In this document: piece after piece, positions 2,967 to 61,200 of the stretch
Layout: each line of letters begins with the position of its first letter
How positions within the stretch are numbered: position 1 is the stretch's first letter
Origin: Beroe ovata
Taxonomy: Eukaryota > Ctenophora > Nuda > Beroida > Beroidae
Direction of reading: 5' to 3'
NCBI GenBank assembly: GCA_946803715.1
Contig: CAMPET010000138.1
Span: forward strand, 116,002 to 180,001
DNA length: 64,000 bases
Notes under the pieces: model-generated
What the model was told of the DNA's origin: nothing
The model's database searches: none
What the model saw: only the letters and a program-made list of their open reading frames with translations
Position numbers and translations under genes: made by a program

Positions 2967-5135
2967 ATGTCGGAGCAGTTACGGTTACTAGTACTGGGAG
3001 CATCAGGAGCAACCGGCCAATTGCTACTCCAACAAGCTCTGCAGAGAAACTTTCCTGTCACTGCACTTGTGAGTATAGTCACTGCACTCGTGATTATAGT
3101 CACTGCACTGGTGAGTATAGTCACTGCACTTGTGAGTATAGTCACTGCACTCGTGTGTTAGTCACTGCATTCGTGAGTATAGTCACTGCACTCGTGTGTA
3201 AGTCACTGCACTCGTGAGTTAGGTCTTACGCGTTCTGCCTTTTCCGAAATATGATTATAATTTCTCCTCTTTTTATAGGTTCGAGACCCGTCTAAGATAA
3301 CAATACAAGACAAGAACCTACGGGTTGAGGTGTGTAACATTTTCGACAAGGCCCAACTCCAGTCCCACGTCAGTGAGAGTGACGTGGTTCTCTCTTGTCT
3401 GGGATTCTCTCTCGCGTGGAGCCAGCCAGTACCGTAAGTTTGATCGACATTCTTTGCGCTGTTTTGGGATATATTCGATGACAGAGAAAACTACCTATGG
3501 GTTTATTGTTTAACTTGCAAATGACTTTTAATTAATGACATTTTTTGATAAGCTTCAATTTTATTTCAGTAATACATGAAATATTTCAGGCATTTTTTGA
3601 CCGTTGCTCAAAATTTATCCGAATGTATGAAAGAGTGTGGCAAGAGAAGAGTTATATTCATGCACTCGTGGTGAGTAACGACTCAAGAATGATAATCATG
3701 CTAAGAACAATTTTCTTAGTACCCACTCACCCCTCCTCACCCCCAAACCCCTCCACACCCACTGATTCAGCATATATCATACACAGGTACACTGATCCAG
3801 CCTCTCACTCAAATGCAAGTTTTCTCATGAGGAACATCTTCCTGAAGCTGGTCATCGGACAGACATTGGCCGGTATGAAACTGAGTGAAGAATTCCTTGC
3901 TACCACGGACCACCTGGACTACACATGTGTCCTTCCTGCTGGTCTGACTAACGATGCATTGACAGGTATTCTTTGATATAAGATTTACTACCTTTGGTTA
4001 CAAGTTAAGTGCCAGGTCTCCATCCCAAGCAGTGTAGTCGCACAATTAATCTTCTAAGAGGCACAATTCTGCGATGCCATTTCGATGTCACGAGAATTCC
4101 TCCTTTTGATACAATGCGACTGGTTCTTGCTCGAATCGATCACACCCCCATCTCTTTTTTCCCTTCTCTTCTCCCCTTTCCTCTCCTCCCCTCTACCTCG
4201 GAGAGGAGTCAGCTCCCCCTTCCACTCAGTTCCTCCCACCGACCCTCCCTATAATGCCGCCATGTCCCATGATATACCCGGCCCTCTATACCTGCCACAC
4301 TCCCCCGACTCCCGCAACTCCCTAAGCAGCCGGACCTCTATCCCCTCCCCTCCCACCCCCAGATCAGGAATTCCAAATCAACGACACCGATTCAATTGTG
4401 CCGGGGTGTCCGAGTCGTATTTCACGGGCCGATGTTGCACGCTACATGCTCGATGTAATCCCGGATACTGAATCCTACCGGAAAGTCAGGGCTATCGGCG
4501 TGCAGTGTGTTCGGAAATAGGTCTATCGGGCGGGGGAATTGCGGGCCGGGATATATCCGTAACAGGTATCGTCATCGGGATGTCGTGAGATATACGTCTG
4601 CGATTCGAGTCATATATTAAATCAGAATCTGATTAATCCCTGTTATACCTACAATCAAATTCATTTCTATGTTAAATCATTTTTTGGATTTTTCTTCTTG
4701 CAGAGGAGTTGATCAGTTTTTAGAGACTGTTTATGTGCTATCATAATGAGTGCAGTACCTCGTTACTCGCTGTGTATCATAGCGAAATCAATCCCTATCC
4801 CTCTCTCTCGCTCTCAGTCTCTCTCAGTCTCAATCCCGATTAGACTTTCTTCCCGAGGCTAGACGTCCTAGTTCTCACCGCTTCCCTCCCCACATACCGC
4901 ACCCACTACAGATACCGAGATGAGGCACGCCGACTCGGACTGTTTCGTCCCCGGATGTTCGTCCAGTATTTCCCGGGCAGACGTAGCTAGGTACATGTTG
5001 GACGTTATCGACGATACGACGTCATACAGAACGGTACGAGCTATCGGTATTCCCGATATGGCGGCGGCCGGAAGCCGAGGTGTCATGAGGCAGGTCGGGG
5101 AGCAGATCAATGATTTCTTCAGGACGAACTCTTGA
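2967..5135 (+). CDS. NmrA/SDR-type NAD(P)-binding protein with two alternative last exons
   Basis: Exons 2967-3068, 3279-3433, 3590-3670 and 3787-3965 join in consistent phases (0, 2, 2, 1) and then reach either of two in-phase last exons, 4363-4520 or 4912-5135. The first exon carries the Rossmann nucleotide-binding motif LVLGASGATGQ after a beta strand, followed by VRDPSK, the usual second-strand/arginine position of atypical short-chain dehydrogenases. The pattern matches the NmrA-like/flavin reductase-biliverdin reductase B group: DVVLSCLG in the middle, then a substrate-loop region with YTDP and CVLPAGLTND. Predicted lengths are 224 or 246 residues, close to that family's usual size of about 200-250. 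The product is probably a cytosolic NAD(P)H-dependent reductase or redox-sensing protein; the substrate cannot be inferred. Confidence 0.75.
3057..3225 (+). repeat. Eight tandem copies of a 20-21 bp unit spanning a splice donor
   Basis: The last 12 bases of the first SDR exon (GTCACTGCACTT) plus the first 9 bases of the intron (GTGAGTATA) are repeated about eight times head to tail. Most units keep a GTGAGT-like donor; others carry GTGATT or GTGTGT. The first unit is the donor that gives the correct phase-0 join to the next exon. The first four units are 21 bp, so use of a later donor there would add seven codons per unit. Confidence 0.88.
4363..4520 (+). other. First of two alternative terminal exons of the SDR gene
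   Basis: This exon follows a CAG acceptor in the same phase as 4912-5135 and encodes a related peptide. The block SRISRADVARYMLDVIPD here matches SSISRADVARYMLDVIDD in the distal exon. It stops early at TAG (4518-4520), just after RAIGVQCVRK. The distal exon continues with about 25 further residues ending in QVGEQINDFFRTNS. A remnant-like stretch near 4705-4745 can be read as GVDQFLET and resembles that lost tail. Confidence 0.65.
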
Positions 5136-13765: not shown

Positions 13766-14497
13766 GTGTCATTCTTTCAAACCCAGTAAATACGCTCTCG
13801 TTTCACTTGTCCTTCGTTCAGATCAATGTTTTCTAGGAAATCTAATTTTCTGTAGAAGGGATCATCAAACTATCTTCATCCAATTATACTAAACTCATTA
13901 GAGTCGAGGATAAACACTTTACCCGAAGTGCTACTGCTATAAGGTACACCGAAAGACAGAGTGGCGTTTCCAATTAACCCGGAATGTTGAAACATTATTG
14001 TCAACTAGCGACCTAGGTCATAGGTGAGTTTCCGCATTCCGAATCCAAGTGAAAATGGAAACAAGATCTCGTCATAGCGTTGCTCCACTAATCAGGTTGG
14101 TAATTGTTTGTTTACCTTTCCGCGGGTAAAGTGGAAACAGCACGTGGACGTGTCAAGGGACACGTGTACAGCGCGTTGACCGGGATCTTTAAATACCGGG
14201 CAAAACGTCCACCATCTTCATCCACTATCCAGCTTGTCCCATGACAACTGGTTTAGACGATCTCTGTCCTATAGTACCCAGCTATTGTTGCTAGTTTTTG
14301 GTCCGGTGTCCCTTTCTCTTATCGTGATCGAGTTTAACTTGATCATCTTGGAGGAAGTCACTGGGATCAGCTGAATTGAAATTATTTCTCGTTCTATTCT
14401 ACCGTTCTTGACATTTTCATGATTCAATTTCAAAACTTCAATCAAGCTCTCTAAACTAACTATTTTCTCTCCCTCTCAAAAGGTTATTATCGTCATC
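13766..14497 (+). promoter_or_regulatory. Upstream region of photoprotein-like gene A
   Basis: No coding exon is seen here. Two CACGTG E-box cores lie near 14139 and 14160, and a TATA-like TTTAAATA sits at 14188-14195. This is about 300 bp before the ATG at 14498 and could be the core promoter. The interval 14250-14497 would be 5' UTR, possibly with an intron ending CTCTCAAAAG. Function is inferred only from position. Confidence 0.35.
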
Positions 14498-17400
14498 ATG
14501 TACGTTGATCTGACCCAGAATCCCAAATGGGTTCAGCGATGTCTGAGCTTCTTCGACAACGCTGACTCCAAAAAATCCGGTCTTCTGTACATCAACGATA
14601 TTCTTGAATGGGGAAACCTGGTCAAAGAACACTGCACTGAATCGGAGCTGGTGTTTTTCAAGAACAGGTTTGTGTGTCTACCTGCAACTCCACTCAGAGC
14701 CAGTTCAACATTCCCTCCAGTCATTATCCATCAAGTTATCGACTCAGTTATCTTGTCCTTCCCAATTATCAGTGTATGTTCCCCTCACATTAAAACATTC
14801 CCCACACACTAATACATTTCCCCACTCCTGCAGACTGCGAGAGTTCTACACTGCTCTTGGGGTTACATCCTCTGGAACGCGCAGAGAAGACTGGGCAGCT
14901 GCCGTTAACCGCTTTGCTAACGCGGAGCGAGAGAGAAGGGCCAACGGACGACGTACCATGTACGAGGATCTCTGCGATGCGTTTTTCGATATCTTCGACA
15001 AGGACAAGAACGGAGTTATCACCCTCAACGAACTCATCATGCGGATGAAAGCGTTCGGCATGCCGGAGAGTTCGGCTTACGCCTTCTTGGAGTTCGCCGA
15101 CACGAACAAGAACGGTGTTTTGGAGCGGAGCGAGATCTACGAGGCCGATTTTGAGTACTGGTTCGGTAGCATCGATCCCAAGTATGATGATCTGTATGGG
15201 GAGGTTTACAAGGGGGATGATATGGCAGGTTAGTGTCTCAAACCACCTGAAAATATTACCTGACGCACTTGATGATACTTCGAAATCTTGCACACTGCTA
15301 TATAATGTGATTGAACTATTCATAACAATGATTTCCCCGACAGATGCCGACTTTACGAAGAATGTCAAGTGGGTGAGGAGGATTCTTAGCTTTTTCGACC
15401 TGGCGGACAAGGAGGGGAAGGGCGCCATCTACCTGGATGACATCGTGAAAACATGCGACCGTCTCAAGGAATTCTGCCACCCAACTGAGCAGGAGTTCAA
15501 CCTGTACAAGCAACGGGCGGTTGAGTTTTACTCGGCACTCGGCGCCACGAGTCAGGGAACGAAGAGAGAGGACTGGCCGGCGGCCGTGAACAGATTCGCC
15601 AAGGCCGAGCGAGGACGGAAGAAGAGGGGCGAGAAGACGATGTACGAGGCACTGTCCGACTCTCTGTTTGACATCCTAGATCAAGACAAGAACAACGTGA
15701 TCACACTCAACGAGCTGAAAGTGAGGATGAACGTCTTCCGGATGCCAGAGGATGCTGCGAGAGTTTTCATGGAGTACGCCGATGTCAACAAGAACGGTGT
15801 CCTGGAGAGGAACGAAATGTACGAGGCTGATTTCAACTTCTGGTTCGGATTCGACCCTGCTCTCGACAATCTCTATGGTGATTGGTACAGGGGAGAAGAA
15901 GTGAAGGGTGAGTGTAATTTACACATGTCACGCACATTCCTCATCTCATCTGCTCAATGATCTCTACATCACTCGAGCTATCTATCTATCTCTGATGTCA
16001 TCCCATTCCCAGATTTGGACTTGCTGAACAACCCCAAGTGGGTCCAGCGGACTCTCAGCTACTTTGACAACGCCGACACCGAGAAGACCGGGGTTCTCAC
16101 CATGAGACAAGTGCTTGGGTTGTGCGATGAGCTGAAGAAGTACTGCAACCCATCCAAAACGGAACTCAAGGCGTACAGAAACGCTTCCAAGGAGTTCTAT
16201 TCGGCTCTCGGTGTGTCCAGTATGGGCACGAAGAGGGCAGATTGGCCCGCTGCTGTCGCAAGATTCGCCAATGCGGAGCACAGGAGAAAGAGGAAGGGTC
16301 AGACTACCCTCTACCAGATGCTGTCCGATGCCCTCTTCGACATCATTGACCAGGACAAGAACGGGGTGGTCACCCTGGACGAGCTGAGGGTCAGGAACAA
16401 GATATTCGGCATGGCCGAGGAGTCGGCGGTCCCGTTCATGGAGCTGGCCGACACCAACAAGAATGGTGTTCTCGAGAGGAAGGAGTTGTACGACATTGAC
16501 TTCGACTTCTGGTTCGGTGTGCCTGATGAGAAACTGGACAACCTCTACGGGGAGATGTACAGAGGAGAGACTTTCAAGGGTAAGTTGCTCCTCATTCCTC
16601 CACATTCTGCCTCATCCCATTGTATTTCACCTGAAATTTTGAACAGCTCTCCCTGCCCTCCTTCCATAACCTCATATTTTGTCTCCCTTCGCAGAGATTG
16701 ATTTGCTGAGTTGTCCCAAGTGGGTACAAAGGACCCTCATGTTCTTTGACCACGCTGACAAGAACAAGACGGGCGTTGTCACCCTCCCTCAACTCATGGA
16801 GCCTGCTGAAATGCTCAAACAGGCTTGCAGACCGACTGAGAAAGAGCTGGAACTCTACAAGGATAGGTTGGTTGAGTTCTGGGCTTACATGGGAATCACA
16901 ACAACTGGCACCCGGAGGGAGGATTGGCCGGCTGTCATTGCCCGCTTTGCGGACAGTGAGCGACACAAGAGAAGGACCGGGCAGACAACTATGTACGAGA
17001 TGGTGTCAAACGCTCTCTTCGACATCGTTGACAAGGACAAGAACGGTGTCATCACGATTGAGGAGTTGAAACTGAGGATGAAGGCGTTTAGTATGCCGGA
17101 GGAGGCAGCTTATGACTTTATGGAGTTCAGTGATACCGATAAGAGTGGGAGCTTATCGAGACAGGAGTTCTATGAGACGGACTTCAACTTCTGGTTCGGA
17201 TCTATCGACCCTGCCCTTGACCAGCTCTACGGAAAGTGGTACAACGGGACTCAGAATGAAGGTGGGAGTCTATTCGATCAAAATTCTCACGTTTTCCCCA
17301 TGACATCGCTTTACTATTTAACTTTGCTACTGATCCACCCATGACTCTCTAAAATCTCACATGCAAATATTTTCCAGATATTGACCTCACCCAGAACCCG

Positions 17401-18625
17401 AAGTGGGTTAACCGAGTGTACAGCTACTTCGACCATCTGGACGTTAACAAGACCGGGGTGATGAAGATGAGTGATCACCTCGGGCTGATCAAGGAGCTGG
17501 AACGCTGTAACCCCACCAGAGCCGAACTGGAGCGATACACCACCGCCATGATTGATTTCTACCTCAGTCTGGGCGTGACGTATGAGGGAACAAAGAGAGA
17601 GGACATGCCCGCTCTTGTCAACAAGTTCGCCCGAGAGGAACGGGCTCGGAAAAACCGTGGAGAGGTGACACTCTACCAGAAGATGTCCGATGCTCTCTTT
17701 GACATCCTGGACTCAGACAAGAATGGCATCGTCACCATGAACGAGCTGGTTGTCCGGATGAAGGCATTCGGGATGCCCGAGAGAGCAGCACAGGCATTCA
17801 TGGACTTCGCCGATACAAACCACAACGGTGTTCTGGAGAGGAACGAGATGTATGAAGCTGATTTCAACTTCTGGTTCGGGAACATCGATGATGCGTTCGA
17901 TGAACTCTACGGTGATGTCTACCGAGGCGTTGAATTGGAAGGTAACCACCTCATTCAACACTTCGTTCTGTCTTGTATAGAAATCTGGATTTTTCTAAAT
18001 TGAAACTACAATTTCTTTGAATTCGATTCCCAAGTTCTCAATCCCAACGGGGTCTCAACATGCAATATTCTCAGATAACGACCTGACAAAGAACCCAAGA
18101 TGGGTGAAGAGGATAAACACATACTTCGACATGAATGATCACGAGAAGAAAGGAATCATCACCTTGGATGATATCTTGAAGTCTGCTGCTCTCCTCAAAG
18201 AAGTAGCCAACCCAACAGACTACGAGTTTCAGACATACGAAGACCGCATGATCGAGTTCTACTCGGCTATGGGGTACACAAGTGGAGGTCTAAGGAGAGA
18301 AGACGCCCCAGCGTCGATCAACAGATTCGCCCAAGCTGAACGGGAAAGGAAGAAGAAAGGACAAGTGACGCTCCATCAGACACTCTCTGACGCTCTCTTT
18401 GACATCTTGGACCAGGATAAGAACAATGTCATCACGATGAACGAGCTGGAGGTCAGGATGAAGGCCTTCGGGATGCCCGTGAGTGCCGCTCGACATTTCA
18501 TGAATTTTGCTGACACCAACCGAAACGGAGTGCTGGAACGGAGTGAAATGTATGAGTTTGATTTTAACTTTTGGTTCGGAACCGTTGACGCTGCCTATGA
18601 CACTCTATACGGCGGACTTTTCTGA
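14498..18625 (+). CDS. Six-module calcium-photoprotein-like polyprotein A
   Basis: Exons 14498-14667 plus 14834-15228 (module 1), then one exon per module: 15344-15907, 16013-16579, 16695-17261, 17378-17941 and 18075-18625. All inter-module introns are phase 1. The summed 3378 bp give 1125 residues. Each module (about 188 aa) has the calcium-photoprotein layout: NPKWV start, EF-hand 1 loop (degenerate in several, e.g. DSKKSGLLYIND), a degenerate second hand around GTRREDWPAAVNRFA, canonical hands 3 (DKDKNGVITLNE) and 4 (DTNKNGVLERSE), then DFNFWFG and LYG. REDW, AERERK and MKAFGMPEEAA recall ctenophore photoproteins; NPKW, FWF and the terminal LYGG recall aequorin. The aequorin His169 position is Asp. 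No signal peptide is seen. Calcium binding is very likely; light emission is unproven. The alternative is a sarcoplasmic-type calcium buffer. Confidence 0.9.
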
Positions 18626-21600
18626 GAGGGTACCGATACGCTGGTCGGTTGAATGAACTATAATCATTAATGAGATAAGAGTGCCGTGAATTTTTGTTTT
18701 CAGTTTTCAGTTTTGAGATGAGTCCATAGCGGTATAAACAAGTTTTTCCATGTATGTCAGCAACATTTTAATTGTAAATATACGAATGATAAAATTTTGA
18801 ATTGATTGGCTTGAATCATTGCTTCATCCTGATAATACCTGTTTTTGATGCATTTTACCTTTGTTTATTATAACTCTGTTTACACCACCACTTACCAATT
18901 CCATCCCCCAGCTTTAGCCAAAACATGTCTCTTGACCTGAGTCAGAACCCAAGGTGGGTACAGCGGACCCTCAACTTCTTCGACTTTGCGGACAAGAACA
19001 ACAACGGGTACCTGGAGATTGAAGAGGTTATCGGGTGGGCCAATGTCCTCAAGCAGTACTGCCGTCCCACTGAGGAGGAATTCAACAACTTCCGGGACCG
19101 ATTGCGGGAGTTCTACACTGCTCTCGGTGTGACAAGCTCCGGGACTTACCGTGAGGATTGGCCCCGTGCCGTGAGCCGATTTGCCGATGCCGAGCGGGAG
19201 AGGAAGAGGAAGGGGCAGAGGACCATGTACCAGGAAATGTCCGATGCTCTGTTTGACATCCTGGATCGGGATAAGAACGGAGTAGTTACCCTGGATGAGC
19301 TCGAGATCAGAATGATGGCGTATGGGATGCCCAAGGAGTCGGCAAAGGAGTTCATGAAGCTCGCCGATACAAAGAAGAAGGGGGTTTTGGGACGTCAGGA
19401 GTTGTACGATGTGGACTTTGACTTCTGGTTTGGAGATATGGACCCTAAACTCGATGCGCTGTATGGAGATGTGTACAGAGGGGATGATTTGTCTCGTGAG
19501 TATAATTACACAGTTTAGTCTCTCGTGTTGCCCATCTTACCATCTCCTTTTTCATCGATAATAAGTCAAGCAGATAACACTCGTAAAATACCTCATTCTA
19601 ACATAAATCTCTCCCACGCCCAGACATCGATTTGACCAAGAACTCCAAGTGGGTGAAAAGGGTACTCTCTTTCTTCGACTACGCTGATTTCAACCAGAAC
19701 GGAGTCCTAGAGCTGGACGAAGTTGTGGCAGCAGCTGACATCCTGCGAGACCTGTGCCATCCCACTGACGCGGAGTTTGATCGGTACAAAATGAAGTTGA
19801 GGGAGTTCTACTCCTGTCTTGGCATGACAAGCAAGGGAGTGAGGAGAGCTGACTGGCCCGCTGCTGTCAACAGATTCGCAACATCGGAGAGGGAACGGGA
19901 GAGGAAGGGACAGGTAACCCAGTACCAGATGGTGTCTGATGCCCTCTTCGACATCATCGACCAGGACAAGAATGGAGTTATCACCATTGACGAGCTTAGG
20001 ATCAGGAACAGGGCTTTCGGGTTCCCTGAGGAGGCTGCTAAGACCATCATGGACTATGCTGATTCCAACCGGAATGGAGTGCTGGAGAGAGAGGAGCTGT
20101 ACAAGATCGACTTCAAGTTCTGGTTCTGTGATATCGACCCTCGGCTAGACCTCCTGTACGGAGATTGGTTCAGTGGTGTCGACAAGAAAAGTGAGTATAT
20201 CTGACAGTCATCTGACAGTCATCTCAAATATAAACTTCTCTCTAATGGCTCACATCTTCTCTTGAACTGCCACACTCATTACCCATGCTTTCTTTCCTCA
20301 GCTGTTGACCTTACCAAGAACCCTAAATGGGTGAGAAGAACGCTCAACTACTTTGATCTGGTGGACACCAACAAAAACGGTGTTCTGGAGCTGGAAGAGA
20401 TTGTCAATCTGGCGGACGGGTTGCTGGAACACTGCAACCCGACGTATGAAGAGATAGAGAACTATAAGAAGCTGTGCAGAGAGTTCTTCGCTGGTCTCGG
20501 CGTGACAAGCAATGGAGTACGGCGGGAAGACTGGCCTGCATCTGTGAGCAAGTTTGCAGCGTCTGAGTGGGAGAGGAAGAACAGAGGACAGGTAACCCAG
20601 TACCAGAGGCTGTCTGATGCCCTCTTCGACATCATCGACCAGGACAAGAATGGAGTTGTCACCATTGACGAGCTGAGGATCAGGAACAGGGCTTTCGGGT
20701 TCCCTGAGGAGGCTGCTCAGCCGTTCCTCGAGCTGGCCGATACAAACAGGAATGGGGTTCTTGAACGGGAGGAGTTGTACGAGATCGACTTCAACTTCTG
20801 GTTTGGCACTAATGTTGATAAGTTGGATACTCTATATGGGGATTGCTACAGAGGACAGCGGTATAAAGGTGAGACTAGGGTCTGTCGGAACTCAAATCAT
20901 CACAATCACATTCTTCAAATTCAATGAAATTCCATTATCAAGATACGAAGATTATATTTATAACATTTTCATCGTCCCTCAGAGAAGGACCTCACCAAGA
21001 ATGAAATGTGGGTTAAGAGAGTCCTTGCTTTCTTCGACTACACCGATATCTCCAAATCCGGTGTTTTGAAACTGGAGGATGCTGTCAACGGATCAGTGGA
21101 AACAGTGAAAAACTTGTGTCACCCGAGCAAGTTGGAACTGAAGAGGTACAAGAATCTGCTCCGGGAATTCTACTCTGCTCTCGGGATGACTAGTGAGGGC
21201 ACACGCCGGGAAGACTGGCCCGCGGCTGTCAACCGGTTCGCGGCACAGGAACGGGCAAGGAAAAACAACGGCGAGAAAATGATGGTGGATGAAACATCCG
21301 ATGCTCTCTTCGACATTCTTGACACCGACAAAAATAACGTGATCACCATGGATGAGCTGAAGATCAGGATGAAGGCGTACGGCATGCCGGAGGAAGCCGC
21401 CGTGCCGTTCATGGCGTTGGCCGACACGAACAAGAACGGTGTTCTCGAGAGGAGGGAGATGTACGATATCGATTTCCGGTTCTGGTTTGGGGATGTTGAT
21501 GCTGATCTTGATGATCTCTACGGTGATTGGTTCAAAGGAGGGGACAAGGAAGGTGAGACTATCTACGATTCGCGTTCAAATGATGCCAATTTTGATCTGT

Positions 21601-23057
21601 TAAAGTCAATCTTACTCTATGATATGATCCACTCAATCAAAGACCAATGATTCATTGATCTTTGATTCAGTGGATCATGTCAGAGATCATTTCTCTCACC
21701 ACATACTTTGTCCCTCAGACCGTACCCTGCTCAACAACGAGAAATGGGTGAACAGAGTGCTGTCATTCTTCGATTATGCGGATCGGAACGGCAATGGAGT
21801 CCTCGAGATAGAGGAGGTCATGGGGCTGACAGATAAGCTGTCCAGCATTATACACTTTGTGCCGAAGGAAGTTGAGGAGTACAAGAAACGCCTCCGGGAG
21901 TTTTACTCTGCTATGGGATTGACCAGTTTTGGGATCAGGAGATCAGATTGGCCTGCTGCCGTTAACAGGTGAGATACTAGTGCAAAATGTGGAGAATAAT
22001 TAGTTCTCCGCATTCTGGTTTACTTAGAGTTTGAGGGCCATTTTAAATTATGACCATTTATATCGGAGGATTAAAGGACCATTCAGAATTAGTGGAATAA
22101 TTGACTTCTCAAAAAATCATTTAGAGTAACAATTGGGGTCATGACAAACATAATTACCACAGATTTGCGGCTGCAGAGAGAGCAAGAAAAGCGCGGGGAG
22201 ACATGACCATGTACCGAATGGTATCCGATGCTCTCTTCGACATCATCGACCAGGACAAGAACGGGGTGGTGTCAATGCAGGAGCTCATAATCCGGATGAA
22301 AGCGTTCGGTTTCCCCGAGGAATCGGCCATCACGTTCATGCAGTTTGCCGATACAAACCGGAACGGAGTGCTAGAACGAGAAGAGATGTACGAGGCAGAT
22401 TTCAACTTTTGGTTCGGTATGGTGTCCGATGATGTGGATAACCTGTACGGAGACCACTTCCGGGGATATTCCTATTGTGGTGGGTATCTTTCCTATTTTA
22501 GTCCTAATTATGATGATCAGGCTCATGCGAGTCCTAATATTATGACATTGACAGAGACAAATACTATAAATAGATTTAATCTCTTGTGACTCAATGACTC
22601 ATCATGTGTGATTCATTAAGAAAAACAGACTAATATTTTTGCTCTTTTCAGAGGAGGACCTGACCAAGAACCCGGTGAGAGTGAAGCGTATCCTCAACTA
22701 CTTCGACTTCAACGACAAGGCTAAGAAGGGTGTGATCACCCTAGGCGATATCATGAAACAAGCGGACAGGTTGGAGAAACTCTGCAACCCCAGACCAGAG
22801 GAATTGCAGAGGTTGAAGGACCGCATGATCGAGTTCTACTCGGCTATGGGGTACACAAGTGGAGGTCTAAGGAGAGAGGACGCCCCAGCGGCTATCAACA
22901 GATTTGCCCAAGCTGAACGAGAAAGGAAGAAGAAAGGACAAGTGACGCTCCATCAGACACTCTCTGACGCTCTCTTTGACATCCTGGACCAGGATAAGAA
23001 CAATGTCATCACGATGAACGAGTTGAAAGTGAGGATGCAAGCCTTCGGGATGCCTGT
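18242..23057 (+). repeat. Near-identical segments shared by the last modules of genes A and B
   Basis: Bases 18242-18480 (module A6) and 22819-23057 (module B6) differ at about 13 of 239 positions by eye, while most modules share far less. A second patch links B2 (about 19909-20040) with B3 (about 20587-20718) at only a few differences. The coordinates given span both members of the A6/B6 pair. Confidence 0.85.
18626..18924 (+). other. Short spacer between photoprotein-like genes A and B
   Basis: This 299-bp spacer must contain the 3' end of gene A and the promoter of gene B. A polyadenylation-like AATGATAAAATTTTG lies near 18783. No other element was recognised. The small gap allows either separate transcripts or a read-through transcript. 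Confidence 0.5.
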
Positions 23058-23202
23058 GGAGGCAGCCAGGCCCTTCATGGAATTCGCTGACACCAACAAA
23101 AACGGTGTCCTTGAGAGACGCGAGATGTACGAAGTTGATTTCAATTTCTGGTTTGGAAACGTTGATTCCAAATATGATTCTTTGTACGGAGGAATTTTCT
23201 GA
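18925..23202 (+). CDS. Six-module calcium-photoprotein-like polyprotein B
   Basis: This tandem paralogue starts 299 bp after gene A. Exons are 18925-19495, 19624-20190, 20302-20868, 20983-21552, 21719-21968 plus 22163-22479 (module 5, split at a phase-2 intron), and 22652-23202. They total 3393 bp, or 1130 residues. Module borders are again phase 1. EF-hand 1 is more canonical than in A (for example DFNQNGVLELDE, DTNKNGVLELEE), and hands 3 and 4 are canonical in nearly all modules (hand 4 of module 1 is DTKKKGVLGRQE). If three hands per module work, up to about 18 calcium sites per chain are possible. FWF is kept in all six modules. The last module carries NPVR in place of NPKW and REDAP in place of REDWP, and ends LYGGIF at the stop, mirroring LYGGLF in gene A. 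The shared design indicates duplication of a whole six-module gene. Confidence 0.9.
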
Positions 23203-23953
23203 GGGTTTTAAAGAGGAACACCATGAACTTTTTGTATATAGTTGAACGAGTTTTAAGCATCATTTTTACATTTGGAATTAAGATGGATTGAACTTTTACT
23301 TATAGTCGGATTTGAGATTGTTTTGATATTTTTGACATGTAGGATGCACCTTTTTTATGCTAACCGATTTAATGTTATTGAAGTAATGAAAACCTGAACC
23401 TCGAGTTTCTGATTTTGATGATTTTCTACTCTGTTTTTATTTTGATTTTTAAACCTCGATTGTAACATTGCAATTCCCCTCATTTGTAATTTCATTTTCA
23501 GATTTTTTCAGTAAGGATTTATAAAACTTTCTTTTGATTTTAATTTCATTTAAATAACATCAAGAAAAGGACGTGGAATTGCGAGTTCTGAAGTGTGAGT
23601 CACCGACGAAAATGTATCCAAGTGCGCTCTGTTCTGTGTAATTCAAAATGATCGAAAATAAACCTCAAATTCAAAACTCGCAATTCCATCGTGTCAGCCG
23701 TGATATCGGACAATAAAAATCAGATGATTTAGGTTTTGAATGATGATATCGACAAATATTCCAGACTCGTTTTGTTTTCAAATCATATTCATTTTGTTTT
23801 TAATTCACGTAATAAGCATTCCCTCAATAAAAAGTCTATTACTGCTACACCTAATTCTAATTAAAAAAGAAATCCAAAGGGACACCATAAAAACTCTAAG
23901 CACTTTAATTCAGCCCAAATGCAGAATGGCTGTATATAGTAGGATCATAAGCG
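23203..23953. other. Convergent 3' region between gene B and the antiporter gene
   Basis: AT-rich 3' flanking sequence contains AATAAA-type signals near 23657 and 23713 on the plus strand. Nothing coding is supported. The two genes converge here. Confidence 0.5.
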
Positions 23954-26900
23954 TTATATAAGAAGCGAAGTTCTTTCATCAATCGGGTTTATATTCAAGT
24001 ATCGCATTATCTTCCGTCTCAAGGAGGGATCGTCACCCTTAGGGCCAACTTTCCTGCCCCACCATCCAAACAAAAACGCAACAAACAGAAGCACGATGAT
24101 GTAAGAAGCGTAGAAGGGATATACATTCGTGCCAAATGCAATTCCAACTAGCAGGTCCCCAAAAAGGATGGTCAACGCAGCAAGAGGGAGACAGAATGAC
24201 GTCATGACTTTGAGATGGTCTACCATAGGACACTCTGAAAGTGAAATAAATATGGTTACAGTTACAGCCAAAGCTGGGGTCTCAATCTCGTGGGACTCAT
24301 GCATCATGGGATCACTATGACTAAGGGCTAAGAAAATGAAAAGTTCTGCAGGACGTGCAAAGAGCCCATAGAAAAGTGGATTTCATGTTTCACCTGTAAA
24401 GAGCACCCCGGCAATGGTAGTATCAGCAATGGGAGAACATAGGTTCCCAAAGACAGAGCTACTGAGTGCCGCGGCCACTGTTCTCAGGTATATCTCCTCG
24501 CTGTCTGTCAGATTAACTACAACTGGAACAACCAGTGGGAATAGGATACCTGGGGTCATTGTGTAGAATCACTATCAGAGAGCTTGAAAAACGAGAGGAA
24601 TTGGTTTCCTTGATACCTTTAATGTTAAGTGTTAATCCGAATCGAATTTAAAACTAGTTGATCCAGATGACGATTGAATTAATGGGGTCATTCATAATTC
24701 ATGTTTTATACAATGCTTACCTTGGGTTCCAAGAGCGGAACCACTGGCGTATGACATGGCATACCCGATGATACAAACCAAGGACGGGAAGAATTCAACT
24801 CGCATGCCCTCTCCTAACGCTGAAAATAATATCATTGGGTTAATGGAATAACAATTCAACTTCTATGCGAAAGTAGTAGCTGAGGACTAGTACCTAGCTT
24901 TTCCCTCAGTCTTACATCATGACAGCCAAATTGTGGGGTACAACTACAAATTAACACTTACCCAAGGCCACATCACTTACCGACTTACCCCATTCTTAAA
25001 CGCCGGTACGCCATGTCACTTACCCAGTGCTATGTACTCAGAGGTATGGATATCGTTCATGGCCTCACCCAAAGACCACGCCAGTATGAGTATCATATTT
25101 GGTTCTGACATACTCTTTACTCCCTCCACAAAGTACTTCATACACTGTGCCAGCCCCATGATCTTCTGAGCCGGTATCAATACCTGAGTACAACAATTAA
25201 CGAGCACTGCAAGGTCGTTTTGAATCAAACTTCCTTCTATTACTTTGTGGAAGTGGAATGAAGGTGGGCAAAAACAGTCTCGGCCAGTGCAGGAGACACT
25301 TACCAGAGACAACAGAAAAGAGACAGCAGTTCCAATAACAAGACAGTTGATAGAATTGCAGTGACTCGCACAGTTGAGGAATGTCATAGGAATGTCTACT
25401 CCTGACTCTACAATCGCTTCCTTGCCTGCAGAGATCAGAGTTGGAAAGTGTGTCATCAGAGTGGTGTCAACGTTATGGAGTGGTGTCAGTGCAATGTCGC
25501 GATGGACTGTTGTCGCAGTGATGTGAAGCGGTGTCAGCGCTATACAATGGACTGGCGTCAGTGACACGTGGAATGGTGTCAACTTTATAGAAAGTGGTGT
25601 CAAGATGATCACTTGATTTACCATCGTAGTACATTCTGAGAAGGGAAACGCCCACCAATACCATCAGGGGGATAATGGCATTGAACCATCTCTCCTTCAC
25701 CTCTTTCCTTCCATCCTCCACCTTCTCATCCAATTCATCCGCCCCGATCGAGCTGGCAATATCAGATGTTTCCTCTTCTTTCTTTGCTTTGCTCCTCGCT
25801 GCTTCTATTTCGTATGATATCATGGGAGCTGAGGAGGGGATTTTTGTTTTATTGGACCAAAACCAGGGTAGATCTACAATTCTCTGAAATTGAATGATCT
25901 CATCGTGCTTGATGATATCATTATCATAGTTTCGCCGTGTTGAATTAATTTAAAGTTTTGTAGAGTTCTTATACTTGGCAACATACCAACTTCTCTGTTG
26001 ATGAAGACGTATAAGATGACGGAGAAGAGGGCTGTGAGGACGAAGAACCGATAAGGTATCGATCGGATCAGGTATGAAAATCCCGAGACCTGCATCCCGC
26101 TCAACTTGAACGCTGACTCGATGTAACCAATCTGAATACGCGGACAGTTCATGGATATGAAGATCGTGTTCATGAATACCGGATTGAAATTGGAATCGTA
26201 GAGTAGACAGAATAACTGAGTCGTAGAATAAATGAAAAAGTGTCGTTAAACTTAACCAGGAACATTTATGGCGACTGATTGATAACCCCGTGTTGTTAGT
26301 TAACAACACCTCTCCTCAACCGGGCGTACCTGTATTCCAGCCCAGCTGGAAAGCGGGCAGAGACTCGCCACAATGACTGCCATCATGTGCACGATAAATG
26401 AGAACTTCTGTTTGCTGAGTCCTAGAGTGGTAACCATGGTACCCAGACTCCGGCCACAGATCATGATGCCTGGTGGAGGGAATGGCGTTGGGTAAGGGGA
26501 GCGGGGCGAAATGGGGTGGGCAGGGGGTGAGGGTGTGAGGGAGCGTTCAACATGATCCTTATGGGGGGACTGAGGGGGGGGAAGTGGACGTGAGTTTATC
26601 CGTCGATTTGTGCCAATCACAAACAGGAATATGCACGACACAGATAAATCACGCACACATAATCACACACAAGCAAAAAAAAGCGTCACAAATCAGTAAT
26701 CACCCGGTGTTGTACAATGTACCTGCGAAATCATCGAAAAAGTAGAACATTGGGAGTATCATAGCAACGATTGCAGCGTGCTGCGGGGACCGGGCAACTT
26801 TGGCAATGTGCCGAGTTAGGTCATTGGCACCTCCTGATTGGTCCGCTATTTCTATTACTCCACCAATCATTGCCACGAACATCACAACCCCTGCCTTAGG

Positions 26901-44121: not shown

Positions 44122-44400
44122 GCTACAGATATACACTCAGTTTTTTTTATAAGAAACTTATCAAAATCCTAGGCTAGAGGTTTCTTATTTTTCCGCGATT
44201 TTGAGCCTACAAGTTTCTTAACTAGTTTCTTATTTCTGTATCCTATAGCAATTTTTGAAACTTACTTGAGTCACCATNTTATTCCAGTTATTTGTCAATT
44301 AAGTATCTCTCATTGCTTTGATTGTGCTGATTTGATAAGGATAATCATACCCTGTAGTCAACATTCATGGGACACTATTACATTTTATAAGGCTGTAGGC

Positions 44401-45465
44401 ATGGACGATGATGATATTCCTGATCTGATACCAGTTTCACATGAGATCAGTGCTTCTTCAGAACCGCTACCAGATATCCCTGTTACTATCATTACTGGTT
44501 ACCTAGGTGCTGGTAAAACTACTCTTCTAACATACATTCTACAAGAACAGCATGGTAAAAGGATTGCCGTGATTGTTAATGAGTTTGGTGAGGGTGAAGC
44601 TGTAGAAAAACCTGGAGCCCTTGGGGTTGGGAATGAAAAGTATGAAGAATGGCTTGAGATGACAAATGGATGCCTTTGCTGCAGTGTCAAAAGTGACATC
44701 GTGCTTGCACTTGAAAAATTGATGGAGAGGCAAGGCAAGTTTGATTATGTTCTTATAGAAACAACAGGCCTCGCTGACCCAGGAAACATTGCTCAGAGTT
44801 TTTGGGTTGACGATGGGCTTTCAAAATTATATCTAGATGGTATTGTGACAGTATGTGATGTATTCAATGTTGAGAAGACCCTATGTGAGGCTAAGGGTAA
44901 GATTACAGAATGTGAACGACAGATAGCTTTAGCGGATGTTGTCATTCTGAACAAGCTTGACCTAATTGATAATGATGCAAAAGATCGTGTTTCTCAAAGA
45001 GTGAAAGATATCAATGGCTCATGCAGCATTCTGTATACAAAGCACAGTCGTGTAAATTTGGATGATATTCTCGAGATAAATGCATATACCAATGCCAGTC
45101 CCCCCACAACAAACTGCCATGACCTTTCATCTTCAGCTATAAGTACCGTCACATTAACCACAGACACAGATATTAATCGAGAAGACATTGAAAACGCTCT
45201 GGAAACTCTGTTATGGGCTGATTTATATGATAACGGCTCTGAACGATCGTCTCATGAAATTGTAGATTCCGGGAAGATGACCATTCTCAGGGTGAAAGGG
45301 AAAATCAAAACAAAAGACGGTTGGAAAATGATTCAGGGTGTTCGCGATATGTTTGATATAACTTCTATAAATGGAGAGGGCATACTCTTACAGCATCTAG
45401 TTTTCATTGGAATTCATTTAGACATAGAAAAATTGTGTCAAGTTACCAAAATGAAAGTTAGGTAG
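44401..45465 (+). CDS. ZNG1: ZNG1 (CBWD), COG0523 zinc-chaperone GTPase
   Basis: A single uninterrupted frame. Start chosen at [11 protein letters not shown] (44401), because the frame upstream runs through the N at 44278 without family similarity. It has Walker [10 protein letters not shown], a switch region [11 protein letters not shown], the metal-binding GCLCCSVK motif (CxCC), Walker B-like [12 protein letters not shown] and the guanine-specificity NKLD, then a shorter CobW C-terminal domain. ZNG1 uses GTP hydrolysis to transfer zinc to methionine aminopeptidase METAP1 in the cytosol. The human N-terminal METAP1-binding motif CPELVP is represented by IPDLIP, with the cysteine missing. Length is 354 residues, slightly shorter than human. 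Absence of introns stands out next to its split neighbours. Confidence 0.9.
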
Positions 45466-45663: not shown

Positions 45664-47599
<1,936 letters not shown>

Positions 47600-58200: not shown

Positions 58201-61200
58201 GCGCTGGAAAAGTGTTGGGTTGTTGTCGATCAGTTCTTCGATCTTTACGAGGTAGAAACTCACCCTGATACAAAAACAATAAGGCTGTAATATTGCTTTG
58301 TTGTCTTTTTATCTTCTTAACGCAAAGTATCGCTTCAAACCAAACACAAAACAAGGTTTTACATCAGTGAAATTGAACTTGAAAATTAGAAATTCAAATG
58401 TCACTTCAGACAGAGTTGTTGGAGATTGTGCTGCGAGTGTTGGGATCACTTCACACCGACCCAAACACGAGTGTACGTCATCGAGCAGTTCAGTTCCTAG
58501 TGGGGCTGTGCTACAGATGCTTCTCCAAACAGTTCTACTCCATCATCAATATCATACTCAAGGTAAGGTACAGGAAGATATTATGCTGTAGTTCTGCTAC
58601 AACTTCTCCTTTTGTCAGTTTATCACTGTTAATTTAGATATTCGGGAATGAAGGAGAGCGTAGTGTCGCTACCTCACTTCTCCTCACTACACACACACAC
58701 ACACACACACACANACACACACACACACACACACATACGTCATACACACACATACACATTACACGTACACACACACACACGAACACACACATTCCCTGTT
58801 CAGGTTATATCTGTTGTGGTTCAGCAGAGGGATGAGAATGAGAGTATTTTGCTCTGCGATGAGCTCATCAACCTCTTCCTCCACAAGGTCAGTTCATTCA
58901 GTAGTTAATAAGGAGTTAAGAGAAAGTTCGATAAAATTTTTCGCACATTCCTAATTCTCAACTCGAAATAAAACTCGATGATACTGTAAGTTCACAAAAT
59001 TAAACTGTTGAACTTTTGAAAACGTTTCAATCGTAATAAAATCACCAGGTTTCCAGAACCCCAAGTTCACATGCGTTGTTCATGTTTGAGGGTCTGATCA
59101 GACTCGCAACTGGCTTCTACTCGGCTAACTTTGAGCCACATTTCCAATACACAGCCAAGATTCGATGCAAGGTAATCAAATAGTAGGTACAGTTTCAATA
59201 ATGATTGTGTACATTTTATAGTACAGTTGACCCTCCAGACGCCTAATTACGGCTCCGTTCCCTGAATTTGATCATTATGCCTGTCGAAACCAAGGCAATC
59301 CCAATAAAAGCGACCACTGCAACCGGAAAAACAGAATCCCTCTTCATGCCACCAAGACCCACTTTGCGTTTCTCCCCGAGGACACAGACCCTGAGATACT
59401 CCAACGCAGCCTCACCCCATATTCTCACACCCATCTCCTCAATCTTATCCTCATGCATCGTATCAATCACCCCAATCAGCAGTTCCGTGTCGATCCTCGG
59501 AAAATTCTGGAATTCTGCCAATTTGAACTGGTAAGTTCGGATACCGAATACCACGGCATTGCTCCTCGGTAGGCGTCGAAATGTCTGAAATTCAGTCCGG
59601 TAGGTAAGTTTCTCCCCAACCTCTTCAAGGCCAGAGTAGGTGTTCGTGTTAGTGAACCTATCCATCCGCTTGTTTTCTCTTCTCATGCTCTTGACGAGGT
59701 CAAGTGGGCCGTTCAGATCGTTCTTGATACTCCAGTTGCCGCGTTTCATCGGTTTCGCCGTCTTCAGACTCTTGAAGAATCCGCCCACATTTTTCAGAAG
59801 ATGTTTCTGGTATGAATCCACAGGAATATGGATTGCGGAGAGCGGAGTATTCCACTTCTCTCTCAAATCCCACACTCCATTACCCTGGCTGAAGAAGATA
59901 ACCCCGGCCGTCAGGAGGTACTCGTCCCACTTTTCATCGTACTCCATGATGACCCAATCCTCCTGGGATAACCATGCACACTTCATGAGTGGGTCCTCCT
60001 CTGCCCCACTCCCGCCCTCATTCCCCCTCACTCTCACCTCCTCCCCAAGCATCCTATTGTAAATGACGTCCCCTCCCTCTCTCCTCTCAAACTTGTCCGG
60101 GTAGAAGTGGGCGAGGTGGTCAGCCAGTGTCTCCAGCAGCTCCTCCTTGGCCAGCTGAGTGGAGGGGTCCGTGTTCGACACGAAAACCCGGTCTCTGTAA
60201 CCCTGATCTAGGAGTGTCTCCTTGAGGTGCTGCTGTCCCGCGTAACTCTTGTCTATCTTGACCCAGTCCCGCACGTCCAGGGACTGCGTGAGCATCTTCA
60301 CTTTGCCCGGGGTCTCCTGTTTCAGTGGACCGAGATACGGCTTGCCGTCCTCAAATGTATCCCAAGTGAAGGATGATTCCACTTTCTCAACGTCTATCGG
60401 CATTTCCGTCGAGCTACAAGACGTTTATAAATCATTTCATCGTTTGATTGTTCGTGTTGACTGTTGGTACCACAATTGAAGCAAATAGACGATAAGCTAG
60501 CTCTATCAGAATTATTGCCTATGTAGGTACTACAATTATGAGTATTTTACAATAACAACCTATCCTGTAAAATTGAAACATCTTGTAGGAAATGAAACTG
60601 AATACTCAATACGTGTGAACTGTGAATCTAAGGAAAGAACTCACTGCACCTCTAATAATTATCTTGACACTTGACACTTGACACACACACTTGAAATCAG
60701 AACATCATTTTCCTACAATTCACTAAAGCAGCCGTTATTACCAGTGCTGATAAAGCCACAGTGGTAGAGAGAAGCAGGGTACGACTTTGTAAATATCCAG
60801 CACTTGATCCTGATGATGAGGTGGAGAGATCACGAGCCCCGCCCAATAATCCCACTCTGAGGTACTCGAGTACAGCCGGACCCCATATTTCCACTTCCAT
60901 CTCCTCTGCCTTGTCCTCTGGGAGATTTTCTATCACTGATATCAGTAATTCCGTGTCTTCGCGTGGAAAATTCCGGAATTCGTTTAGTCTGAATTGGTAA
61001 GTCCGGGCACTGAACACCATAGCGTTGCTCCTCGGTAGTCGCCTCATTGTCTGGTATTCGTTCCTCATCGTGATCTTCTTCCCCACTTCCTCCAAATTGT
61101 CAAACAGCACTGGTTCTGATGAATCCATGTCAAATTCATCACCCTCCAACATACCCTTTATTAGGTCCAGAGGTCCGTCGAAACAGTCGTATATAGCCCA

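Follow-up and report, generated by a model that had tools for sequence, protein, structure and literature searches.

Two adjacent ctenophore genes of six photoprotein-like modules each: candidate multivalent Ca2+-binding proteins

Introduction

In the portions of the literature drawn upon here, photoproteins are described as single chains carrying one substrate each, and the single-domain photoproteins comprise ~190–210 residues. Those of the ctenophore Mnemiopsis are encoded, according to the parts of PMC3570280 considered, by single-exon genes standing head-to-tail in tandem, for which concerted evolution was reported. Here we describe two adjacent genes of the ctenophore Beroe ovata (GenBank assembly GCA_946803715.1, contig CAMPET010000138.1, forward-strand positions 116,002 to 180,001; this stretch of 64,000 nucleotides is called ‘the window’, and coordinates refer to it unless another locus is named) which likewise stand in tandem and bear tracts suggestive of conversion, but which have seven exons each and would encode chains of six modules (1125 and 1130 residues in the gene models). 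On balance, and with somewhat more than even confidence, we favor the view that these are paralogous tandem ctenophore genes for six-domain chains of photoprotein fold which have lost the light chemistry and work as soluble, multivalent Ca2+ binders.

Results

Gene models and modules

A core of 258 nucleotides recurs twelve times, at spacings of 669–927 nucleotides, within 14973–23220. GT-AG gene models resolve the region into two adjacent genes of six complete modules each, as an earlier note on this DNA had proposed, and the outer limits given there (start 14498, end 23202) hold in the models; splicing and transcription are deduced from the GT-AG borders and the open frames. The modules (M1 to M12) and their Ca2+-binding loops, scored for EF1, EF3 and EF4 by a strict ligand-position rule devised in this analysis, are as follows.

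14498–18625, + strand: gene 1, six-module photoprotein-like protein of 1125 residues; GT-AG gene model, open frame throughout
14498–14667, 14834–15228, 15344–15907, 16013–16579, 16695–17261, 17378–17941, 18075–18625, + strand: the seven exons of gene 1
14498–15228, + strand: M1, two exons (intron 14668–14833); EF3 and EF4 intact, EF1 degenerate
15344–15907, + strand: M2; intact loops EF3 (Asn for Gly6) and EF4; EF1 degenerate
16013–16579, + strand: M3; EF3 and EF4 intact, EF1 degenerate
16695–17261, + strand: M4; EF3 and EF4 intact, EF1 degenerate
17378–17941, + strand: M5; EF3 and EF4 intact, EF1 degenerate by the rule (Thr at loop position 5); predicted structure with a pLDDT (predicted local distance difference test) of 92.4
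18075–18625, + strand: M6, closing gene 1; intact loops EF3 (Asn for Gly6) and EF4; EF1 degenerate; putative converted tract in common with M12
18626–18924, + strand: gap of 299 bases between the genes; CCCCAG, resembling a splice acceptor, ends 13 bases before the second ATG
18925–23202, + strand: gene 2, six-module photoprotein-like protein of 1130 residues; GT-AG gene model, open frame throughout
18925–19495, 19624–20190, 20302–20868, 20983–21552, 21719–21968, 22163–22479, 22652–23202, + strand: the seven exons of gene 2
18925–19495, + strand: M7, opening gene 2; intact loops EF1 and EF3; EF4 degenerate
19624–20190, + strand: M8; EF1, EF3 and EF4 intact; predicted structure with a pLDDT of 90.9; putative converted tract with M9
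20302–20868, + strand: M9; EF1, EF3 and EF4 intact; putative converted tract with M8
20983–21552, + strand: M10; intact loops EF3 (Asn for Gly6) and EF4; in EF1, Asp occupies position 12
21719–22479, + strand: M11, two exons (intron 21969–22162); EF1, EF3 and EF4 intact
22652–23202, + strand: M12, closing gene 2; intact loops EF3 (Asn for Gly6) and EF4; EF1 degenerate

Neither model protein contains an internal stop, and both would be large, acidic chains (131.1 kDa and isoelectric point (pI) 4.93 for gene 1; 131.9 kDa and pI 4.98 for gene 2) of six modules of 183–190 residues, in neither of which was a signal peptide seen by eye. Ten of the twelve modules are encoded by a single exon, while M1 and M11 each have one additional, differently placed internal intron. 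All ten introns at module borders are in phase 1, so that gain or loss of a module exon would keep the frame; the two internal introns are in phase 2, and the length of nine of the twelve introns is not divisible by three. A single protein of twelve modules spanning both genes was considered and rejected, because (i) the stop of M6 lies at the usual end of a photoprotein and M7 begins with an ATG of its own, and (ii) the frame would be lost if a phase-1 intron were spliced to the acceptor in front of M7.

Pyrimidine-rich stretches with an AG precede both start codons, the AG ending 15 bases before the ATG of gene 1 (14465–14498) and 13 bases before that of gene 2 (18895–18925). The gap between the genes contains no AATAAA, and variant hexamers are found at 18733 (TATAAA), 18777 (AATATA) and 18788 (GATAAA). 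With its short gap, lack of AATAAA and acceptor-like AGs, the arrangement looks like spliced-leader trans-splicing or an operon-like gene pair; leaders at mRNA starts are mentioned for the ctenophore Hormiphora in the part of PMC10282587 considered.

Homology to photoproteins

Several lines of evidence bear out the homology of the modules to photoproteins: (i) a photoprotein of the animal itself, used as query, matches all twelve modules (E 2.6e-33 to 2.0e-18 for the best exon of each), and chance origin of the twelve-module pattern is, as judged from these matches, ruled out; (ii) ctenophore photoproteins are the closest sequence match (137 bits, ~35% identity), and scores against photoproteins are far above those against sarcoplasmic Ca2+-binding proteins (SCPs), the coelenterazine-binding protein (CBP; 37 bits) and calmodulin; (iii) sequence and predicted fold of M5 and M8 are nearer to photoproteins than to other four-EF-hand proteins; and (iv) a starred branch (100/99) sets photoproteins and modules apart from CBP, SCP and calerythrin. 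The grouping with SCPs or calmodulin-like proteins which the earlier note had named as refuting such a homology did not occur.

Within the family, the twelve modules fall on one side of a branch with values 91/88 (not starred) in a tree of 22 sequences. The best tree with outgroups, in which CBP and SCP form long branches and the Nematostella, Amphimedon and four-exon ctenophore sequences are not included, joins the modules with the hydromedusan photoproteins (75/64). The approximately unbiased (AU) test, however, rejects neither a grouping with the ctenophore photoproteins (p-AU 0.431) nor a tree that unites both photoprotein groups to the exclusion of the modules (p-AU 0.254), and we therefore make no claim on the branching order. 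The mixture of cnidarian-like and ctenophore-like signatures pointed out before is real and fits an old lineage, although the tree does not tell which photoprotein group is nearer. As for the individual motifs, an alignment of the twelve modules has LYG in all and FWFG in ten, but exact NPKW in only four, and the ending LYGG belongs solely to the final module of each gene (LYGGLF-stop in M6, LYGGIF-stop in M12).

Ca2+-binding loops

According to the loop rule, by which two photoproteins of the animal itself, berovin and mitrocomin keep all three loops, EF3 is intact in every module (with Asn for Gly at position 6 in four), EF4 in all but M7, and EF1 in five (M7, M8, M9, M11, and M10 with its Asp at position 12). 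This amounts to 28 ligand-keeping loops out of 36, namely 12 of 18 in gene 1 and 16 of 18 in gene 2. EF1 is degenerate in all six modules of gene 1, through Lys, Glu, Thr or Gln in place of a ligand residue, and kept in five of six in gene 2, so that by loop count the two proteins have diverged in predicted Ca2+ capacity; EF1 of M5, degenerate because of Thr at position 5, could still bind Ca2+ weakly. The three working EF-hands per module expected from photoproteins are present, strictly, only in M8, M9 and M11 (3/12), or in 4/12 if M10 with its Asp in loop 1 and Asn for Gly in loop 3 is admitted; the joint presence of loops I, III and IV that marks a photoprotein is hence absent from most modules.

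Residues of the light-emitting pocket

The pocket residues of ctenophore photoproteins were taken from Table 1 of PMC5544205, which is used in part. In all twelve modules six of them are replaced: R41 by Phe or Tyr, K90 by Leu or Met, N107 by Val or Ile, Y133 by Leu or Phe, D158 by Gly, Arg or Ser, and F188 by Asp. F86, W192 and Y204 are kept in 12/12, S130 and F167 in 11/12, F157 in 10/12 and W103 in 9/12. From the triad R41-D158-Y204 and the K90/N107 cluster the modules thus keep only Y204, whereas two aligned photoproteins of the animal itself keep all five residues, and its photoprotein equals berovin at 22 of 22 pocket positions compared (23 are listed; Y206 lies outside the alignment). 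For the mutants R41M, K90M, Y133F, N107W and F188H activities below 1% are given, and 25% for D158N (PMC5544205, as far as considered), although the substitutions in the modules mostly differ from the mutants tested there. The argument from K90 is weakened because K90M mutants of berovin can be converted to active photoprotein, as stated in the part of PMC11595719 used.

The hydromedusan pocket is likewise lost: the positions of obelin His22, His64 and His175, located by alignment to mitrocomin with a numbering match made in this analysis, carry His in none of the twelve modules. In the excerpt of PMC10095345 considered, His22 and His175 are pocket residues and His64 is the residue mutated in the third triad. 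Around obelin Trp92 a three-residue gap shifts and the alignment is uncertain, and this residue is therefore not counted. The pocket left in the modules is aromatic. Its invariant Asp-Trp-Tyr set (12/12), formed by the Asp at the place of obelin His175, W192 (obelin W179) and Y204 (obelin Y190), corresponds to His-Trp-Tyr in jellyfish. With known essential residues absent from all twelve modules, the known photoprotein chemistry is not retained.

History of the two genes

Between the genes the modules are 50–79% identical, and the tree pairs the first modules (M1-M7, 95/92) and the last (M6-M12, 100/99), the middle ones being unpaired. Only 12 of 720 orders of the gene 2 modules, the actual one included, give a co-positional identity as high as the actual order when whole modules are compared (7/720 for the N-terminal, 63/720 for the middle and 30/720 for the C-terminal part). 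This pattern fits a duplication that took place after the ancestral gene had reached six modules. M6 and M12 share 87–100% nucleotide identity at about codons 51–130 and 48–77% in windows outside, and M8 and M9 share 95–97% at codons 101–140 and 53–75% outside; we read both tracts as probable gene conversion which would blur the record. The ratio of nonsynonymous to synonymous rates (dN/dS) is 0.15 for M6-M12 and 0.17 for M8-M9. In the majority of the remaining pairs the synonymous sites are saturated (median proportion of synonymous differences, pS, 0.75 over 66 pairs), so that purifying selection is indicated rather than measured.

Photoprotein and luminescence genes elsewhere in the genome

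Searches of the animal’s genome (77.8 Mb in 534 contigs) with M5, M8 and its own photoprotein, which yield counts that are lower bounds, revealed no module outside the locus at 14498–23202. They revealed at least seven nearly full-length copies of ordinary single-domain photoproteins, in one of which a stop falls within the match, and at least one copy cut short beside an N; these lie at four places on contig C432, two on C484, and on C192 (one full-length and the one cut short). A C432 copy shares, where aligned, 95% identity with berovin and 91% with mnemiopsin; for the C192 copy the values are 91% and 89%. These berovin/mnemiopsin-like proteins are of ctenophore type, and the sponge, placozoan and cnidarian genomes which the earlier note proposed to search thus miss the host’s own group.

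The ordinary photoprotein genes are single-exon genes in tandem (L021, L022 and L023 on C432/C484, identical where compared; L024 on C192), and in all eight copies read the REDW motif of berovin and mnemiopsin has Asn for Asp. A photoprotein fragment lies on C61; at ~3459–3617 of L053 a fragment of an ordinary photoprotein gene carries a stop codon (87% identity over 53 residues) and is probably a pseudogene. On the minus strand of L051 (C111; 2498 of 8000 locus bases are N) an exon at ~3767–3961 resembles photoproteins but is divergent and its loop degenerate; it is a candidate for the four-exon photoprotein-like gene of PMC4488382, which is apparently separate from the six-module genes. At least four successive calmodulin-like EF-hand segments at ~1889–5912 of L052 (C246) belong to the category of weak matches (E 0.18 or worse).

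Nearly identical open segments of 49 residues ending in FYY were found on two contigs (1786–1935 of L044, 1720–1869 of L046), ~50 bases after matches to PF03171, the 2OG-Fe(II) oxygenase family. FYY-ending proteins resembling isopenicillin-N-synthase, a candidate for coelenterazine synthesis, are reported from luminous ctenophores and as absent from two non-luminous ones, Hormiphora and Pleurobrachia, which also lack true photoproteins (PMC4488382, as excerpted), and the segments may be inferred to be the last exon of such a gene. Together with the ordinary photoproteins they identify the host as a ctenophore with a luminous gene set.

Other features of the window

Two adjacent long open reading frames (ORFs) on the minus strand (59243–60403 and 60697–61869) match PF11927, a family resembling the alpha subunit of haem-dependent oxidative N-demethylase, with 205 bits each; such a pair is unexpected in an animal and was perhaps acquired horizontally. 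Nine ORFs of the window were submitted to a Pfam scan, two of them remaining without match; further matches are a CobW GTPase (44266–45465), a Vps4-type AAA C-terminus (47072–47599), tuberin (63123–63998) and a Na+/H+ antiporter fragment (25016–25624). No Rfam family scored above threshold in the window.

Discussion

Our findings suggest a lineage that would be old inside the photoprotein family, in which the pocket chemistry known to emit light appears to have been lost and each chain would be a multivalent, soluble and probably cytosolic Ca2+ binder. Counting EF3 and EF4 in each module, protein 1 would offer about 12 sites, and protein 2 about 16; concatenation would raise both the capacity and the local concentration of sites, and the role might be Ca2+ buffering or sensing, with full-length production, Ca2+ binding and cytosolic location each presumed. 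SCPs and parvalbumin are comparable Ca2+ binders. Multivalent Ca2+ binding appears best supported by the intact EF3 and EF4 loops, the signs of purifying selection, the acidic chains of 131 kDa and the lost light chemistry. A role as high-capacity buffer would depend, beyond the 28 intact loops and the low pI values, on affinity and abundance; the evidence does not tell buffering, sensing and Ca2+-dependent scaffolding apart. Of the earlier proposal of ‘a poly-photoprotein or large calcium-responsive store’, the second part is accordingly kept, while the first finds no support in the pocket residues.

Several observations nonetheless weigh against this view: (i) full-length production of both chains is presumed from gene models; (ii) the loss of EF1 throughout gene 1, presumably one third of its sites, would be odd under selection for capacity alone; (iii) the dN/dS values come from pairs with putatively converted tracts while most pairs are saturated; (iv) among the modules pocket columns are conserved at 0.75 compared with 0.69 for others, a value equaled by 1295 of 10000 random column sets; and (v) the retention of F86, W192 and Y204 in all modules would also fit a retained ligand.

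The last two points lead to the main rival, a Ca2+-gated carrier of small molecules, in which coelenterazine, the product formed from it or some other hydrophobic ligand would sit in the rewired pocket and be released upon Ca2+ binding, the protein itself making no light. The Renilla CBP and, for another ligand, the sponge okadaic acid binding protein 2 (PMC5754374, considered in part) provide models. Conservation of the pocket relative to the animal’s own photoprotein is, however, at background (34% at pocket positions and 34% elsewhere), CBP is a distant sequence match and the ligand would be hypothetical, and we consider carriage unlikely, if worth keeping in mind. It is tempting to speculate about a new kind of coelenterazine-handling protein, whose modules would close on luciferin or its product through the rewired Asp-Trp-Tyr, so that a Ca2+ pulse might discharge up to six ligands per chain, the chain then either supplying ordinary photoproteins with stored luciferin or emitting weakly itself by another chemistry; this we regard as still less likely.

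A structural or scaffold protein, changing chain length or stiffness or docking partners upon Ca2+ binding in muscle, cilia or comb plates, would suit a chain of domains with short linkers, and the pairing of first with first and last with last modules between the genes (12/720 orders) hints that order matters. Descent from one six-module ancestor explains the positional signal equally well, though, and any partner motif or localization would be hypothetical, which leaves the idea doubtful. More improbable yet is a working poly-photoprotein of six coelenterazine-charged, Ca2+-triggered emitters per chain: the modules do belong to the photoprotein family, keep W192 and Y204 throughout and share their genome with ordinary photoproteins as well as FYY segments, but light emission finds no support in modules of which all twelve lack R41, K90, N107, Y133, D158 and F188, mutants of which are <1% or 25% active (PMC5544205, in the part used), as well as the three pocket His. 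That the locus is an artefact or of an unrelated family (separate genes, pseudogenes, assembly duplicates, or SCP- or calmodulin-like modules) has no strong point in its favor, splicing being deduced here from sequence, and is hardly credible given frames that stay open and splice phases that match across both genes of seven exons, a dN/dS of ~0.15 in the two readable pairs, modules too different between the genes (50–79% identity) to be assembly copies, and photoprotein scores far above those for SCP and calmodulin.

The occurrence in one animal of the same fold with and without light-emitting residues offers an internal comparison for photoproteins. It also bears on whether the ancestral photoprotein, before there was light emission, bound Ca2+ or carried a ligand; the part of PMC3570280 considered asks this of the relatives in sponge and anemone. 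Should their affinities for Ca2+ be graded, the chains would be ready-made multivalent Ca2+ sensors.

Comparison with known systems

A natural multi-module photoprotein was not found in the full-text literature searched, by searches only some of which were directed at this point and which cover few subscription journals and preprints; the earlier note likewise knew no such format from the literature. A protein database search with M5 gave 52 word-sharing candidates, none with E ≤1e-5, and is uninformative as to absence, since the known ctenophore and jellyfish photoproteins were also not retrieved; among viral contigs, none of 133 pattern-matching stretches encodes a relative. The six-module genes may well be present among the gene models of further ctenophores.

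The modules share with berovin and mnemiopsin the four-EF-hand layout, F86, W192 and Y204 (12/12) and S130 (11/12), and differ from these ctenophore photoproteins in the replacement of R41, K90, N107, Y133, D158 and F188 and in the loss of EF1 in 7/12. From the hydromedusan photoproteins aequorin, obelin and mitrocomin they are set apart by the replacement of His22, His64 and His175 in all modules (with Asp at the last), by the lack of W114, W135 and Y138, and by being joined in multi-module chains. Renilla CBP, the SCPs, calexcitin and okadaic acid binding protein 2 have the same broad four-EF-hand fold and per-module size. The fold of dinoflagellate luciferase is unrelated to that of photoproteins; its likeness to the present proteins lies in a luminescence-related domain repeated within one chain, with three catalytic domains according to a reference title in PMC9656108. 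The photoprotein-like genes of the non-luminous Nematostella and Amphimedon (PMC3570280, PMC4488382, both as excerpted) are relatives for which no part in light emission is known. The nearest published case is a photoprotein-like gene of Mnemiopsis with four exons, likewise of no known light role and with counterparts in Hormiphora and Pleurobrachia, which is said to lack canonical EF-hand residues (PMC4488382, in the part considered), whereas EF3 and EF4 are largely intact here. The portions used of PMC3570280 and PMC4488382 mention no repeated modules for their photoprotein-like genes, which are thus set apart, by description, from the six-module genes of B. ovata.

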